Shown: positions 245 to 6,461 of the stretch, in pieces
Position numbering within the stretch: the stretch's first letter is position 1
Layout: each line of letters opens with the position of its first letter
Source of the DNA: Microcaldota archaeon
Lineage (GTDB): Archaea; Micrarchaeota; Micrarchaeia; Micrarchaeales; Micrarchaeaceae
DNA length: 6,461 bases
Direction of reading: 5' to 3'
Assembly: GCA_021816645.1 (NCBI GenBank)
Contig: JAKAXF010000035.1
Span: forward strand, 1 to 6,461
Translations under genes and position numbers: made by a program
The notes under the pieces: generated by a model
Database searches by the model: none
What the model saw: only the letters and a program-made list of their open reading frames with translations
Told to the model about the DNA's origin: nothing

Positions 245-351
245 CGGGCCCGGTGGGAGTTTCACATATCCGCGTTCAACGCGAAAAAGTTTTGAACCCA
301 CGACTGATGGGTTAAAAGCCCACCACTCTGGCCATGCTGAGTTACGGGCCC
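245..351 (-). tRNA. tRNA-Lys(TTT) with a T-loop intron
   Basis: This lysine tRNA is read on the minus strand. Acceptor GGGCCCG (351-345) pairs with CGGGCCC (252-246), the discriminator is G at 245, and no CCA is encoded. The D stem is ACTC/GAGT. The anticodon stem GTGGG/CCCAT (one G-U pair) carries the normal 7-nt loop CTTTTAA with anticodon TTT, and the variable loop has 5 nt. The T stem GTGGG/CCCAC (301-297/257-253) encloses 39 nt rather than 7. Removing 32 nt restores TTCAAAT and gives a 75-nt mature tRNA. There is no anticodon intron. The gene is divergent from the RNase H gene and 88 nt upstream of tRNA-Ser on the same strand. Confidence 0.94.
259..290 (-). other. 32-nt intron in the T-loop of tRNA-Lys (position 59/60)
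   Basis: The bulge-helix-bulge fold has outer helix GTGGG/CCCAC, central helix TTCA/TGAA, 5' bulge AAA and 3' bulge ACT. The intron interior forms a hairpin with a CGCG/CGCG core, a TTGAA loop, and a weaker lower stem with mismatches. Cutting AA|A and AC|T gives T-loop TTCAAAT. The insertion point, central helix and 5' bulge are identical to those of the tRNA-Ser T-loop intron, while the intron interiors differ. Confidence 0.9.
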
Positions 352-921: not shown

Positions 922-2484
922 ATGCCGATGCCAAAGGAGGAACAGGGAGAGGAGGGCGAAAAAGAAGAGGTCAAGGCAAATGGCAAGTCTGAAGACGAGG
1001 CAAAGGAGCACTGGAAGAACGGCAACGCACGCTTTCAGGAGGGAAATTACGAAGAAGCCGTCAAAGAATATGAAGAGGCGATAAGGCTAAAGAAGGACTA
1101 CGCCGATGCGTATTTCAACAAGGCCCTGACCGAGTATGCGAGCGACAACGTGTTTGATGCCAGGGAGGACCTTGAAAAAGTAATGGAGATACAGCCAAAC
1201 AGCCACGACGCGCCGTACGTAATGGGTGACATTGCAGAGAAGAGAGGCGACCTGATAGGCGCGAGGTACTGGTACGAAAGATCCCTGGCCAACAATCCGA
1301 GATTTGAAGAAGCTAAAAAGAAACTCGAGGAGATAGACTCGAGGCTGCACGAAGACGGAAGGAAGGCGTCGGCTGCGAGCAGCAAGATAGAGCAGCAGAT
1401 TTCTATCAGCAAGAGCTCCACCAAAAAGGAGGCGGAGGATAAGGACGTAATCGAGGAGGGTCAGATAAAAAGCGTGAGGCTTTACAGGCCAAAAAACACT
1501 TTTGATAATGTTGTGGGCGAGCAGAAGGTAAAGGAGTACCTTTACGACAACGTAGTGCTCGCCGTAAAGAAACCGGAGCTGTTCAAAAAATACGGCAAGA
1601 AGCTCGGTGTCGGACTGCTTCTGTACGGGCCGCCTGGAACGGGCAAGACGTACATAGTCGATGCAATAGGCGGTGAATCCAAAGCCAACGTAATAGTAGT
1701 CAGGATACATCAGATAGTAGACATGTACACGGGAAACACTGAGAAGAACCTCAGCAAGATGTTCGAGCTTGCTAAGGCGAACAGGCCGTGCATACTGTTC
1801 TTCGATGAGCTCGACGCGCTCGGAACTAAGAGGGGAGGCGGCGGACCACAGGGAGAGAGCAATTCGATAAGGCTCGCGGTTAACACTTTCCTTACAGAGA
1901 TGAACGGGATAGAAAGCGACCCTGAAGGACTTTTCGTTATAGGTGCGACGAACCAGCCGTGGGATATAGATCCGGCGCTTAAGAGAAGCGGAAGGTTTGG
2001 CGACAGCCTGTACATACCCCCACCCAAGTACAAGGACAGGCGCGAACTTTTCAAGCTTTACACCAAGAACAAGCCGAGGGGCTGGATCAACTACGGCAGG
2101 CTGGCGAGGGCAACTACGGGATACACGCCGGCCGACATAGAGAGGATATGCGACAAGGCGGCGATGAGACCCCTTCTTCACGAATACAGATTCAATAAAG
2201 AGTCAAAGCTTACAATGAAAGATATGCTTGCAGTGCTGAAAGACAAGGATATGAGCGGAAGTACGCTGGACGAATGGTACAGCATGGTGAAGAAGGATGT
2301 GATAAGCTCGACCGAGACGCAGATAGTTGACGGTAAGAAGCAGGAGATAGTAAAGGAGGGCAAGCTCGACTCGCAGGAGAAGGTCCTCTACAAGACCATG
2401 GTGAAGGACATAAAGAAGAACACCAGCGGTTGGAGGATCACCGTAAAGAAAATGATCAGATGGTTCGCGATTCATTTCTTCTGA
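922..2484 (+). CDS. TPR-repeat AAA ATPase (classical Cdc48/SpoVK/Vps4-like AAA module)
   Basis: This 520-residue cytoplasmic protein joins a binding domain to an ATP-driven motor. Residues 1-25 are acidic and low complexity. About three TPR units occupy residues 26-130, for example GNYEEAVKEYEEAI, and are likely to bind a partner or substrate. A charged linker follows to about 185. The AAA module then shows Walker A GPPGTGKT (236-243), an aromatic pore loop MYTG (268-271), Walker B ILFFDELDAL (D295, E296), sensor 1 N344 in GATNQP, and arginine fingers R355/R358 in KRSGRF. All catalytic residues are present and the pore-loop tyrosine suggests substrate threading. Residues 362-440 form the helical lid; about 80 further residues (to FAIHFF) are charged and unrecognised. 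There is one AAA domain only and no Cdc48 N-domain. The substrate is unknown. ATG at 928 is an alternative start two codons later. Confidence 0.9.
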   Translation: MPMPKEEQGEEGEKEEVKANGKSEDEAKEHWKNGNARFQEGNYEEAVKEYEEAIRLKKDYADAYFNKALTEYASDNVFDAREDLEKVMEIQPNSHDAPYVMGDIAEKRGDLIGARYWYERSLANNPRFEEAKKKLEEIDSRLHEDGRKASAASSKIEQQISISKSSTKKEAEDKDVIEEGQIKSVRLYRPKNTFDNVVGEQKVKEYLYDNVVLAVKKPELFKKYGKKLGVGLLLYGPPGTGKTYIVDAIGGESKANVIVVRIHQIVDMYTGNTEKNLSKMFELAKANRPCILFFDELDALGTKRGGGGPQGESNSIRLAVNTFLTEMNGIESDPEGLFVIGATNQPWDIDPALKRSGRFGDSLYIPPPKYKDRRELFKLYTKNKPRGWINYGRLARATTGYTPADIERICDKAAMRPLLHEYRFNKESKLTMKDMLAVLKDKDMSGSTLDEWYSMVKKDVISSTETQIVDGKKQEIVKEGKLDSQEKVLYKTMVKDIKKNTSGWRITVKKMIRWFAIHFF

Positions 2485-2584: not shown

Positions 2585-2590
2585 GAAAGG

Positions 2591-2662
2591 GGCCTTAGCC
2601 GGGAATCGGACCCGGTCTTGAGGATCCACAGTCCTCCGTGCGGCCATTACACCACTAAGGCC
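2591..2662 (-). tRNA. tRNA-His(GTG), intronless
   Basis: This histidine tRNA is read on the minus strand. Acceptor GCCTTAG (2661-2655) pairs with CTAAGGC (2598-2592). The extra 5' G (-1) at 2662 is encoded and faces C73 at 2591, the identity pair of tRNA-His. The anticodon stem GAGGA/TCCTC encloses CTGTGGA with anticodon GTG. The T stem CCGGG/CCCGG holds a plain 7-nt loop TCCGATT. CCA is not encoded. It has no introns, in contrast to the two tRNAs at the left of the window. It sits downstream of, and on the same strand as, the pilin operon, 77 nt beyond its last stop. Confidence 0.95.
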
Positions 2663-2739: not shown

Positions 2740-3063
2740 TTACTTGTTCAATTCCATAGTTGCGTACACTTTTGGGTAGGAGTTGCTTTCTGCCAAAATC
2801 GTTCCGTTGATTATCCGTACTGAGAATCCATCTATCGCTGCGGCCGACTTGAATTCCGAGAACCAACCGGTAAAATTAGTGGTGTTTTGAATGTTCGGGG
2901 CCGCGCTTGACATTGCCCTGAGTGCCTCGGCGCTAATTATGTTGTTGTTCAATTCCTGGGCGTATAGCAGCTTCGAATACGATGCTGAAAAGCATAAAGC
3001 GTCGGAAACAACCAGCGCTGCGATAAACAGAGATGCGATAAGGGCAGTACCATATAGGCTCGT
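2740..3063 (-). CDS. small membrane-anchored pilus-operon protein, probable ACG start
   Basis: I do not recognise a family. With ACG at 3061-3063 as start the product has 107 residues, beginning with a hydrophobic segment at about 6-19 (GTALIASLFIAALV), then a short extracytoplasmic domain with sequons NTT, NFT and NGT. It ends operon-style with no recognised downstream partner. It lacks the Q-x-S-x-E motif of its neighbours, so it may be a minor pilin-like or ordinary signal-anchored protein. The first ATG/GTG/TTG in frame is TTG at 2952, which would delete the whole membrane segment and leave a 111-nt gap in an otherwise gapless operon. The ACG follows the previous TGA directly and is preceded by GGTGAT (3072-3067), a perfect Shine-Dalgarno core. 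Alternatives are GTG at 3071-3069 with a -1 shift, or a missing base. Confidence 0.65.
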   Translation of the reverse strand, partial: TSLYGTALIASLFIAALVVSDALCFSASYSKLLYAQELNNNIISAEALRAMSSAAPNIQNTTNFTGWFSEFKSAAAIDGFSVRIINGTILAESNSYPKVYATMELNK

Positions 3064-3447
3064 TCAATCACCACACGCGTACATGCACGAAAGCGAAAAT
3101 TTTGTGCTCTGATTTACTACACCGCACATCAGAGATTTGTGAGTGCAGTATGCGGATCCCCCGTAACTACTCACATTTCCGTCTGCATTGATGCTGATGT
3201 AGTCCACGCCGTATACATAGGCCAGACGCTCCAGTATCGCATGACACGATTCCCCTGCGTACGCAAGGCAGCTATTGAAAGTTTGGTTGCTGCGCGCGGA
3301 CTGCAGAAAATCGTAGAATAGCGCGTGGTATTCCGTGCTGAAACTATCTGCAGACGAAGCGTAAATAGAATATGATACGGTGGAGATTACCGCAACTAGA
3401 ATCAATATTGCTATCAGTGATTCAGTAAGCGCAAATTGTGCACGCGT
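3064..3447 (-). CDS. cysteine-rich type IV pilin-like protein, probable ACG start
   Basis: Read from ACG at 3445-3447 the product has 127 residues and begins M-R-A-Q-FALTE, followed by a hydrophobic stretch (residues 10-24). This is a class III signal segment: positively charged tip, then a cleavage point before Q4 or F5, with E9 in the place of the pilin Glu+5. The remaining part is extracytoplasmic, with sequons (NQT, NVS, NQS) and six cysteines that could form three disulfides. TTG at 3405 is the first ordinary start in frame, but it cuts away the charged tip and half of the hydrophobic helix. The in-frame TGA immediately before ACG blocks any longer start. GGTGA (3456-3452), overlapping the upstream gene's stop, gives a Shine-Dalgarno 4 nt from ACG. 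Pilin-like nature is well supported; the start codon is an inference. Confidence 0.72.
   Translation of the reverse strand, partial: TRAQFALTESLIAILILVAVISTVSYSIYASSADSFSTEYHALFYDFLQSARSNQTFNSCLAYAGESCHAILERLAYVYGVDYISINADGNVSSYGGSAYCTHKSLMCGVVNQSTKFSLSCMYACGD
3067..3072 (-). promoter_or_regulatory. Shine-Dalgarno GGTGAT before the ACG of the last pilus gene
   Basis: GGTGAT matches the complement of the archaeal 16S 3' end and lies inside the last codons of the preceding gene. The order is GGTGAT-TGA-ACG, where TGA is the preceding gene's stop. It decides in favour of the ACG at 3061-3063. Confidence 0.55.
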
Positions 3448-3451
3448 TCAC

Positions 3452-3456
3452 TCACC
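3452..3456 (-). promoter_or_regulatory. Shine-Dalgarno GGTGA before the ACG of the cysteine-rich pilin gene
   Basis: GGTGA overlaps the stop of the large pilin-like gene. The sequence runs GGTGAG-TGA-ACG, so the spacing to ACG (3445-3447) is 4 nt after GGTGA, the same as GGTGG-TAAG-ATG used by the gene starting at 5962. Confidence 0.55.
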
Positions 3457-4807
3457 GTATGTAAATGTACGACCCCGAAACCGAAAATGAAGCGTTTTTG
3501 TGCGGCACCGAATTGTTTATTTTAACGGTCAGGTTCCCAAAGTCTATAGCGCCGAAGGGTTTGCACGAGTACAACGGAGTGCTTGTATTATATTGAGATA
3601 TAGCGCACGGCGAATCTGCTCTGGTGCTGTTGTACAGCTCCGCTGCTCCGCGGTTGTACGAACTTATGGTCTGCTGTATTGTTGCAAGTTCGCTATCCCC
3701 TATCTCAGAGCCGTTGTAATATCCAAGGACATCATTGAGGCTGTTTAGAAGTTGCGTATACTGTGAAGCGGTGCTGCTGTTTATAATTGTAAAGTTCTCA
3801 GATCTGCGCAGCACGTAGTAAGAATAGTCCTGTGTCGGTACGTATGCCGTTACCTGGCCGCCCACGGTTACATTCCCTACGCTTGCGTTGCTGCCACTCT
3901 CCCGGAGTATGCTCGTATTTGTGAGGCTGTTGATGCTGGAGTATAACGTTTTACTTTCTGAAGCGTTTGACAGGAGAAGCGTGTCGTTGTATATGTACCT
4001 ATTCTGAACGCCTATCGAATATAGCGTGCTGTTCATTGTGTTTTCGTATACGCACGTGGTAGCCCATACGACTCCGTCGTCGTAATAACAGGGGTCTGAA
4101 AACATGTAGTAATACCATTTTGCGTTGCTGCCGCATTCGGCCTGCATCGACAGCTCGTGTCCCCAGAAGCCTATGTAACCGCAGTGGCTCCATTCAGAAA
4201 GGTAGGTTATGTTGCTTTGCGGAGAGATGTTGCTGAGTACCGACCCATAATTCTCTGTTAGGGTTGGAACGAACAGAGGGGCCGAGGTGCTATTCGGCGT
4301 TAATGCGGAACCTGGTTGCAGCACGGAGTAGGTAGTCGTGTTTTTTAGTATATGGTTTACACCCGACATTGTCTGCACTACAGAATCGATCGTTATGTTC
4401 AGCCGTCCGACAGCTTCTGGTATCACCGTGAACGAGAATATTTGCACCTGGGCTATAGAAGTATTGTAAAATTTACTTGGTATTGCATACATATGGTCGG
4501 CGCCCATCGTGATATTGTCCATGGTAGCGTTGCTCGCATAAACGACAACCTGGACCGTGCTTGAATGATTTACATATACTTCTTCTGGGGCGTATACATA
4601 TTCGAGAACATTATCCGACGGACTTGCGGCTATGTACCCTGTCTGGTTCTTAATTTCTGTGGCTGTTGCGTTTAGCAGTTCTGTGTACGCGCTTGTTTGG
4701 CTGTGCGTAACATGCAGGTAAATTCCCAATACTGACACGGCAAACGATGACACTGCGGCCAGCAGTATTATGAATTCTATACTTGACTGACCGATTCTTC
4801 TTATCAT
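3452..4807 (-). CDS. large, heavily sequon-rich pilin-like surface protein
   Basis: The 451-residue protein has a type IV pilin-like N-terminus: RRIG then QSSIEFIIL, an exact Q-x-S-x-E-x-x-x-L motif as described for archaeal pilins cut by EppA-type peptidase, with cleavage expected after G6, followed by a hydrophobic helix to about residue 31. The rest is a Ser/Thr/Asn/Tyr-rich outer domain with about 25 N-x-S/T sequons and six cysteines, which points to a glycosylated, disulfide-stabilised surface protein such as a tip adhesin or major non-standard pilin. It is three to six times longer than its neighbours, and I recognise no further domain. The ATG is set by an ATGA overlap with the previous stop and by GGTG five nt upstream. 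It is the fifth of eight genes in the operon. Confidence 0.85.
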   Translation of the reverse strand: MIRRIGQSSIEFIILLAAVSSFAVSVLGIYLHVTHSQTSAYTELLNATATEIKNQTGYIAASPSDNVLEYVYAPEEVYVNHSSTVQVVVYASNATMDNITMGADHMYAIPSKFYNTSIAQVQIFSFTVIPEAVGRLNITIDSVVQTMSGVNHILKNTTTYSVLQPGSALTPNSTSAPLFVPTLTENYGSVLSNISPQSNITYLSEWSHCGYIGFWGHELSMQAECGSNAKWYYYMFSDPCYYDDGVVWATTCVYENTMNSTLYSIGVQNRYIYNDTLLLSNASESKTLYSSINSLTNTSILRESGSNASVGNVTVGGQVTAYVPTQDYSYYVLRRSENFTIINSSTASQYTQLLNSLNDVLGYYNGSEIGDSELATIQQTISSYNRGAAELYNSTRADSPCAISQYNTSTPLYSCKPFGAIDFGNLTVKINNSVPHKNASFSVSGSYIYIR

Positions 4808-5136
4808 TTAGGCACCATCACGTATACTTTTCCGGCTACTGCTACTATCCTGCCCGCACCCCTGGCTACCGAGGAGTTGTAGAATCCTTGCAGTTCGTAT
4901 CCTTCGCCATTTGCCAAAGCGCTGAAAACCGTAAGATTTAGATTCGACGCGTACTCATCGTAGAGCAGCCGCTGCTCGGAGAGCCCACTACCTACCGCAG
5001 AATAGGAATTATTCAGATAGGAGAACCCGTAGCCGAATAGAGTCGCGGTCCTGAATGAAAGGAGCATGAATGCGGTAGTAGCAATCATGATGGCTATGAA
5101 AGCTTCGAAGCTTATTATGATGCCTTTATGTGGCAT
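4804..5136 (-). CDS. type IV pilin-like protein
   Basis: This 110-residue protein has N-terminus MPHKG followed by IIISFEAFIAI. The S-F-E core matches its neighbours, but the motif glutamine is replaced by Ile. Cleavage after G5 or I6 would leave E11 at +6 or +5. One hydrophobic helix (about residues 12-27) precedes a small domain with sequons NNS, NLT and NSS. ATG is supported by GGTGA (5147-5143) six nt upstream, and the gene overlaps the preceding one by 11 nt and the following one by ATGA. It is probably a minor or core pilin subunit; which of the two cannot be told from sequence. Confidence 0.82.
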   Translation of the reverse strand: MPHKGIIISFEAFIAIMIATTAFMLLSFRTATLFGYGFSYLNNSYSAVGSGLSEQRLLYDEYASNLNLTVFSALANGEGYELQGFYNSSVARGAGRIVAVAGKVYVMVPK

Positions 5137-5335
5137 TTTGTTTCACCATTATCCCGAACTCCGAATAGGGTTGTACCGACTGGTTTGCCAAGGATACCAC
5201 GCCAGCGTAGAGCGATTCCTGCTTGTCAATCGGCCAGTTGTGCAGGAGGTGATACGAGAATACTGCTAAAAATGACAGGAAAGCGATACTCACTAGCAAC
5301 CATACCATCATCTCAAAGCTTATCTGCGCCCTCAT
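5126..5335 (-). CDS. short type IV pilin-like protein
   Basis: This very small (69-residue) protein begins MRAQISFEMMVWLL, a compact class III signal with motif Q4-x-S6-x-E8 and cleavage expected between A3 and Q4. The hydrophobic helix runs to about residue 27 and only about 40 residues remain outside, containing one sequon (NQS). The start overlaps the preceding stop as ATGA. The size resembles the small archaeal pilins that form a filament core with little head domain. Confidence 0.83.
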   Translation of the reverse strand: MRAQISFEMMVWLLVSIAFLSFLAVFSYHLLHNWPIDKQESLYAGVVSLANQSVQPYSEFGIMVKQNAT

Positions 5336-5713: not shown

Positions 5714-5962
5714 TTATTTCCCAAGGCTCGTGGTTATGTTGGACAGCTCCGTTGCCAACGAACCCGCCACGCTGTGATTTGCAGAGCTGTTCAGGAATGC
5801 GTGCAGGGCCACGCCCTTCAGCTGCAGTATCATTGCCAGAGCCACAACTATCACTATGCTGACTGCAGACAGCATCATGATGTACTCCATCGAGCCCTGC
5901 GCCTTCCTGGACTTCGCGACCAGGAACATTGTCCGTACCAATCCGAGGTATTCTATACCCAT
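5714..5962 (-). CDS. type IV pilin-like protein following the platform gene
   Basis: The 82-residue protein has motif K-S-R-K-A|Q22-G-S-M-E26 followed by a strongly hydrophobic stretch (about 27-48) and a short outer tail with sequons NSS, NHS and NIT. The leader is unusually long (21 residues) if translation begins at the ATG at 5962. That start is supported by AGGTGG (5972-5967) four nt upstream and by lying 1 nt after the platform gene's stop. An internal ATG at 5929 would give a more usual 10-residue leader but has no comparable Shine-Dalgarno. It is probably the first pilin of the set and translationally coupled to the platform gene. Confidence 0.82.
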   Translation of the reverse strand: MGIEYLGLVRTMFLVAKSRKAQGSMEYIMMLSAVSIVIVVALAMILQLKGVALHAFLNSSANHSVAGSLATELSNITTSLGK

Positions 5963-5963
5963 C

Positions 5964-6461
5964 TTACCACCTAAGCAGCATGCTCCCTACCGCAGAACTC
6001 AGCCTGAATATGAGCAAGGCTGCGGCTATCTGCAGTGAGGAATAGGAAGCTATTGAAAGGGCGCTTCCTTTTGAAACGGAGTATTTTACTATTGAATTGT
6101 TGACCAAGGCGATGTACAGCATCAGTATTATAGATAGAGCGGCCGTGTTTATTTCAGCGGCACCGCCTATAACAGAAGTTATGCGTGTTATTTCTAGGCT
6201 TATTCCTGCAAATAATGGAAAGAAAATCATCGCGCCCAGCTTTACTATTGATCCCATGCTCTGCATTTTCGCATTGCTAAGCTTCTTTCCATTTATAGTG
6301 TAGATCTTTTGCTTCAGCTCTGTTATCGGAAGGTGCACATCGCTGCCGTTTTCTAGCGAATCTGCTATTATCCCTAACGCTTCGGACAACGCTCCTACAT
6401 TGTACCTGCTCGCTACGTCTGATATACACTCCGTTGATGAGGAATATCTGTAGGTAGATCG
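5964..6461 (-). CDS. FlaJ/TadC/GspF-type pilus platform protein, C-terminal part (cut by window edge)
   Basis: The reading frame is open to the window edge, so only the last 165 residues are seen. After a soluble segment containing SEALGIIADSLENG and ending near NGKKLSNAKMQSMG come three hydrophobic stretches: KLGAMIFFPLFAGISLEI, ALSIILMLYIALV and IASYSSLQIAAALLIF. A cytoplasmic helical domain followed by closely spaced membrane helices, with the LGAxxFFPLFAGIS motif, fits the second half of the archaeal TadC/FlaJ family. These form the inner-membrane platform that couples the assembly ATPase to pilin insertion. Family membership is judged from pattern and from the pilin genes that follow at once; the diagnostic N-terminal half is outside the window. 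Confidence 0.72.
   Translation of the reverse strand, partial: RSTYRYSSSTECISDVASRYNVGALSEALGIIADSLENGSDVHLPITELKQKIYTINGKKLSNAKMQSMGSIVKLGAMIFFPLFAGISLEITRITSVIGGAAEINTAALSIILMLYIALVNNSIVKYSVSKGSALSIASYSSLQIAAALLIFRLSSAVGSMLLRW
5967..5972 (-). promoter_or_regulatory. Shine-Dalgarno AGGTGG setting the start at 5962
   Basis: AGGTGG sits inside the last codons of the platform protein, followed by its TAA and the ATG: AGGTGG-TAA-G-ATG. It is the best match to the archaeal anti-Shine-Dalgarno in the operon and serves as a reference for the spacing seen at the two ACG sites. Confidence 0.6.

Follow-up and report, generated by a model that had tools for sequence, protein, structure and literature searches.

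ACG as a probable, rare start codon of pilin-like genes in Micrarchaeota

How can a gene be translated when the codon at which its protein should begin is neither ATG, GTG nor TTG? The question is raised by two small neighbouring genes, pil1 and pil2, in the window analysed here, a 6,461-nucleotide stretch of DNA from a member of the Micrarchaeota, where pil1 lies near the end of an operon of pilin-like genes (Table 1). Both frames carry ACG in the start position. To our knowledge, the start codons of NCBI translation table 11 exclude ACG. Those of archaea are usually taken to be AUG, GUG and UUG, the three named by a review of archaeal initiation in which the term ACG is absent from the text (PMC7531240). 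Moreover, among the literature matches listed, which were partly unspecific and had subscription papers mostly outside their scope, none describes ACG as a natural start in archaea.

Table 1. Features of the window (minus-strand genes are read towards lower positions) and three genes of Micrarchaeum sp. A_DKE with ACG starts.
Feature	Location	Strand	Remarks
tRNA-Lys(ttt)	277-350	-	
AAA ATPase	922-2484		83% identical to Micrarchaeota MAG contig L001; 49-70% to 33 other loci
tRNA-His(gtg)	2589-2661	-	
Row of pilin-like genes	6461 down to 2740	-	
pil2	2740..3063	-	small protein, hydrophobic N-terminus; 107 codons + stop
pil2 ACG start codon	3061..3063	-	ATG there in L001; ACG in G013 and G160
pil2 Shine-Dalgarno GGTGA	3068..3072	-	exactly 4 nt before ACG, as in pil1
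pil1	3064..3447	-	pilin-like; 127 codons + stop; R-A-Q-x-A-x-x-E opening, hydrophobic stretch, conserved cysteines
TTG in pil1	3403..3405	-	first conventional in-frame start; rejected, as it removes conserved Q4, A6, E9
pil1 ACG start codon	3445..3447	-	sequence reading; ATG at same codon in 58/84 ORFs
In-frame TGA of pil1	3448..3450	-	directly before ACG; longer start excluded
pil1 Shine-Dalgarno GGTGA	3452..3456	-	4 nt before ACG; contains stop of 'big', TGA 3454-3452
'big', upstream pilin-like gene	3452..4807	-	451 aa, ATG start; stop inside pil1 Shine-Dalgarno
p6, then p5, then p4		-	between p7 and 'big'
p5, comparison pilin MRAQISFEMM	5126..5335	-	ordinary ATG start at 5335
p7	5714-5962	-	class III signal match, below cut-off
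Protein cut off by window end	5964-6461	-	first of pilin-like row
Rrp42 (exosome), A_DKE	L112:12813-13595	-	ACG at homologous start
PduO-type cobalamin adenosyltransferase, A_DKE	L151:15853-16437	-	ACG at homologous start
Apt (adenine phosphoribosyltransferase), A_DKE	L152:3700-4236	-	ACG at homologous start

On the minus strand, GGTGA (3456-3452) is followed by GTGA (3451-3448), by the ACG (3447-3445) and by the codons CGT, GCA, CAA, TTT, GCG, CTT, ACT and GAA. The stop at 3450-3448 confirms the original prediction that no longer start is available; the two GTG triplets nearby (3455-3453 and 3451-3449) are both out of frame, and between this stop and TTG 3405 there is no in-frame ATG, GTG or TTG. 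Directly after the stop, the pil1 frame reads TRAQFALTESLIAILILV... and ends at TGA 3066-3064. With methionine placed at the ACG, the predicted protein would open with MRAQ, as does the pilin that begins at 5335, a likeness that had also been pointed out beforehand and that holds. The frame of pil2 reads D-stop-TSLYGTAL, its ACG standing directly after TGA 3066-3064, and ATG, GTG and TTG are absent between that stop and TTG 2952.

A shorter pil1 protein could be made from a downstream codon, either CTG 3420 or TTG 3405. TTG is a normal start, and the closest protein relatives, P0001 (84% identical to pil1) and P0002 (91% identical to pil2, on nine contigs), known as protein records only, have annotated starts inside the frame, at residues 11 and 12 respectively; such internal starts are, however, what would be expected of a gene caller if residue 1 were not ATG, GTG or TTG. 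Against this explanation, a downstream start would remove Q4, A6 and E9, each conserved in at least 90% over 37 pil1 sequences, while the Shine-Dalgarno motif is in register with the ACG and relatives have their ATG at that very codon. Furthermore, most relatives align from residue 1-3, with ATG as their first codon, and conservation beginning only at TTG 3405 was not seen. We therefore regard initiation at a downstream codon as quite improbable, and translation from the ACG as the preferred reading.

Among relatives, pil1 was found in 41 of 85 family-level and 88 of 164 order-level genomes; five of the order-level places (in G088, G096, G106 and G126, and the second of two in G104) lie outside the codon counts that follow. 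The replacement of ACG by ATG in relatives had been set beforehand as a test, and ATG indeed occupies the position in 58 of 84 distinct pil1 ORFs, the others having TTG (5), GTG (3), a different conventional start close by (10) or a near-cognate codon only (8: ACG in four, ATC in two, CTG in two); G072, with a conventional TTG three codons upstream, stands outside these 84. The four ACG carriers are the window, G079, G012 and G111. At pil2, the 52 ORFs have ATG in 37, TTG in five (two of them assigned by eye), GTG in four, a conventional start elsewhere in two, ACG in three (the window, G013 and G160) and ATC in one. None of the pil1 and pil2 positions classed as near-cognate carries ACA, ACC or ACT, and ACG makes up only about a quarter of the threonine codons in G076 and G079. 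As for the upstream gene 'big', one case of ATT was found in 46 ORFs, four of them with an open 5' end.

Some apparent oddities found during this survey were set aside. The TTC at the pil1 start position of L002 is explained by an ATG 10-11 codons upstream, and three rows of p5 and p6 that had been flagged as startless (loci L176 and L169) resulted from misplaced anchors, the L169 frame holding MRAQISLE. Other observations are recorded here in their own right: ATT is a candidate start of the large pilin in L067 (G064), and CTG a candidate start, not counted, of the AAA ATPase in L006. The ATPases of L013, L019, L022, L024 and L034, loci whose database titles read Candidatus Marsarchaeota, are 61-66% identical to that of the window. 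No relative of 'big' was found in viral_contigs.

The recurrence of ACG at these codons, in 4 of 84 pil1 and 3 of 52 pil2 ORFs with the window included, makes a sequencing slip unlikely. For sequencing or assembly errors to have produced ACG from ATG in both genes, one T-to-C change per site would suffice, but these would have to be two independent errors falling on two start codons. Moreover, the near relatives appear to be without ATG, GTG or TTG at both sites, as far as protein records tell, and besides the same codons in G079, G012, G111, G013 and G160, ACG is found in other genes in separate assemblies. An origin of both codons in error is, in our estimate, very improbable. How often ACG arose is a different matter. 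On a pil1 tree of 134 columns in which many forks are open, ACG against all other rows amounts to four changes, weakly resolved, and close relatives around the ACG-bearing G079 have ATG; when ACG is set against the four other near-cognate rows there are three changes, of which well supported branches force one only, so that any number of origins is tentative.

ACG starts in genes other than those of the pilus were sought by comparing 800 of the 990 kb of G076, taken as Micrarchaeum sp. A_DKE (NZ_CP060530.1), a complete genome, with 574 kb of G079, which gave 424 non-overlapping reciprocal best pairs. Where a Shine-Dalgarno motif of at least 4 nt precedes the start in both genomes and one of them has ATG, the other has ATG in 101 cases, GTG in five, ACG in two and nothing else, a count that omits any unconventional codon close to a conventional start, as in pil1 of G079. 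In a search anchored on the Shine-Dalgarno motif, ACG was the commonest codon among 23 candidates, with five rows, three of which were accepted; the other two (one gene, in both genomes) were dropped for an identical stretch of DNA with ATG further on. Five of seven earlier raw ACG matches had likewise been dropped for a conventional start beside or upstream.

The three accepted genes code for Rrp42, Apt and the cobalamin adenosyltransferase, identities confirmed by NCBIfam models, and in each the ACG is needed for the full-length protein. For Rrp42 (30 of 78 matching genomes examined), ACG stands at the start in G076, G082 and G078, the last with an ATG six codons earlier, and ATG in G079. 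Apt has ACG in G076 and ATG in G078, G079 and G080 (8 of 16 genomes matched). For the adenosyltransferase, 66 genomes match and 30 were examined, of which three species (G076, G078 and G079) have ACG and the remaining 27 a conventional start. In A_DKE, ACG is a rare start, with about three cases among some 330 conserved ones. It is found at 5 of 134 pil1 and pil2 starts outside the window, as compared with about 4 of 662 other starts in G076 and G079 (Fisher p 0.009, with approximate denominators). A spermidine-synthase-like protein of G076 (L116:8109) has a candidate ATC or ATT start and was not counted.

These genes also bear on the idea that pil1 and pil2 are decaying pseudogenes that have lost their starts. 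Near-cognate codons are weak starts, as would suit such decay, but neither frame is interrupted before its end, the conserved residues and the cysteines are retained, and relatives 84-91% identical seem to share this condition of their starts; furthermore Rrp42, an exosome subunit that is expected to be needed, also starts with ACG. Decay is, as a consequence, an explanation to which we give very little credence. The ACG start proposed for pil1 in the original prediction is supported, although not as the peculiarity of one gene: it would be a recurrent, rare start in an archaeal order.

What would allow a ribosome to begin there? At near-cognate pil1 starts, the Shine-Dalgarno motif is in register and somewhat longer than at conventional ones (p 0.026). 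The consensus used is one that we presume, its one support being its register before conventional starts. Pairing with the anti-Shine-Dalgarno is likewise assumed, since the 3' end of the 16S rRNA was not found by pattern in the fetched DNA of G076 and G079 or in the whole G076 chromosome (L339-L348 and earlier slices); Rfam returned no rRNA in G076 800001-900000. A masked, interrupted or divergent 3' end might be the reason for this lack of a match in G076.

A second candidate is coupling to the upstream gene, whose stop lies 4 nt from the ACG in pil1 and 0 nt from it in pil2. In all but one of 18 near-cognate rows, the end of an upstream open frame of 60 codons or more falls between -4 and +6 nt of the start (17 rows), the exception being G111 at +15, with the distance of two of the 18 set by hand to -1 and 0 (the script had taken a CTG a few bases early); the upstream TGA is often inside GGTGA. 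So placed are 35 of 181 conventional starts of A_DKE with a Shine-Dalgarno motif. Conventional starts of pil1 (53 of 64) and pil2 (40 of 44) are about as coupled, although their upstream frames were judged by a slightly less strict rule. Within these two families coupling consequently fails to set ACG apart from ATG, and the evidence comes down to the three non-pilus genes, all of which are coupled (3/3, p about 0.007). These figures are possibly biased, as genes were sought that have no upstream starts.

Changes in the initiation machinery were considered as well. Loss of aIF1 was rejected as a cause, PF01253 being found in 14 of 16 genomes and missing only from G001 and G003, whose listed sizes are 400 and 500 kb. 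An unusual initiator tRNA was rejected for the single CAU tRNA that Aragorn returned in each of A_DKE and G079, which looks like a normal initiator: its end pair is A-U, and its anticodon stem holds three G-C pairs. On the whole A_DKE chromosome Aragorn listed 35 tRNAs, with one CAU and no CGU, which indicates an incomplete set, from which others may be missing. Alternatively, the transcript could be altered. C-to-U editing of the start codon occurs in plant chloroplasts and, if it restored AUG here, would account for ACG being the most frequent replacement; the DNA sequences by themselves are compatible with it. Nevertheless, ATC, CTG and ATT are found at these starts too, and C-to-U changes cannot make AUG of them; we know of no mRNA editing of this kind in archaea. 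Editing is hardly to be believed.

It is very probable, on the sequence evidence as a whole, that pil1 and pil2 are translated directly from ACG by a coupled ribosome held by GGUGA and carrying the ordinary initiator Met-tRNA. The ribosome would end the upstream gene at a TGA that precedes the ACG by 4 nt or 0 nt and be held on terminating by pairing of GGUGA with 16S rRNA; the ordinary initiator Met-tRNA would then be accepted despite the mismatch at the middle base, and both products would start with methionine, keeping the R-A-Q pilin-like opening. In this sequence of events, initiation at ACG, insertion of methionine and coupling as the permitting factor are what we infer. A weak codon might also keep these presumed minor subunits scarce, a dosage role that is conjecture. 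Taken together, the comparisons point to ACG as a genuine, if rarely used, start codon in this group of Micrarchaeota, one complete genome included, and one that standard gene finders overlook. More tentatively, and as a proposal for which we claim plausibility rather than probability, ACG could be a regular if rare start in Micrarchaeota, tolerated at GG-TGA-N4-ACG or TGA-ACG junctions that pass the terminating ribosome directly on to the following gene, and acting in pilus operons as a brake on minor pilins.

A natural and recurrent ACG start would show that archaeal initiation tolerates a middle-base mismatch in defined contexts, would make the roles of coupling and of aIF1-type proofreading in start stringency testable by proteomics, and would explain proteins cut short by pipelines. 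Should the wider proposal be true, archaeal start selection would resemble the near-cognate tolerance of eukaryotes, and gene catalogues would systematically truncate such genes.

By context, hydrophobic stretch and leader, as far as sequence tells, pil1 is a pilin-like protein: it has both the [KR]-[AG]-Q opening and the hydrophobic stretch. In class III signals, the glutamate stands four residues after the glutamine. With the type IV pilins bearing such archaeal signals (PF04021) pil1 shares a short charged leader, [KR]-A-Q, a hydrophobic stretch with a glutamate and a pilin operon, but in the pil1 family, which has several conserved cysteines, the glutamate register is shifted, the spacing being five (Q4 to E9) as against four in p5, p6, p7 and 'big', and PF04021 matches none of 37 members; nor was there a match to the PDB by profile search. 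The class III signal first claimed for the ACG start is consequently to be retained as a resemblance of the opening.

Among known cases of unusual initiation, infC and pcnB of E. coli have AUU as a rare natural non-AUG start. The likeness lies in a weak codon at the start of a gene that is regulated or of low dose, while the codon and the domain of life differ. Termination-reinitiation in Haloferax volcanii and E. coli, in the part of the work consulted, concerns overlapping or adjacent genes with stop and start codons a few nucleotides apart, as in pil1 and pil2, and in Haloferax volcanii reinitiation falls by 60% at 13 nt and is abolished at 22 nt; the starts of these pairs are conventional as far as that part goes, whereas here the downstream start would be ACG (PMC10666635). 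In yeast, according to the portion consulted, ACG is usable as a start at a low level (PMC6898956), and aIF1-type proofreading is described as common to archaea and eukaryotes in the review text available to us (PMC7531240). Nevertheless, yeast ribosomes scan from the cap, whereas the ACG codons of Micrarchaeota are genomic and recurrent, and stand in operons behind a Shine-Dalgarno motif.
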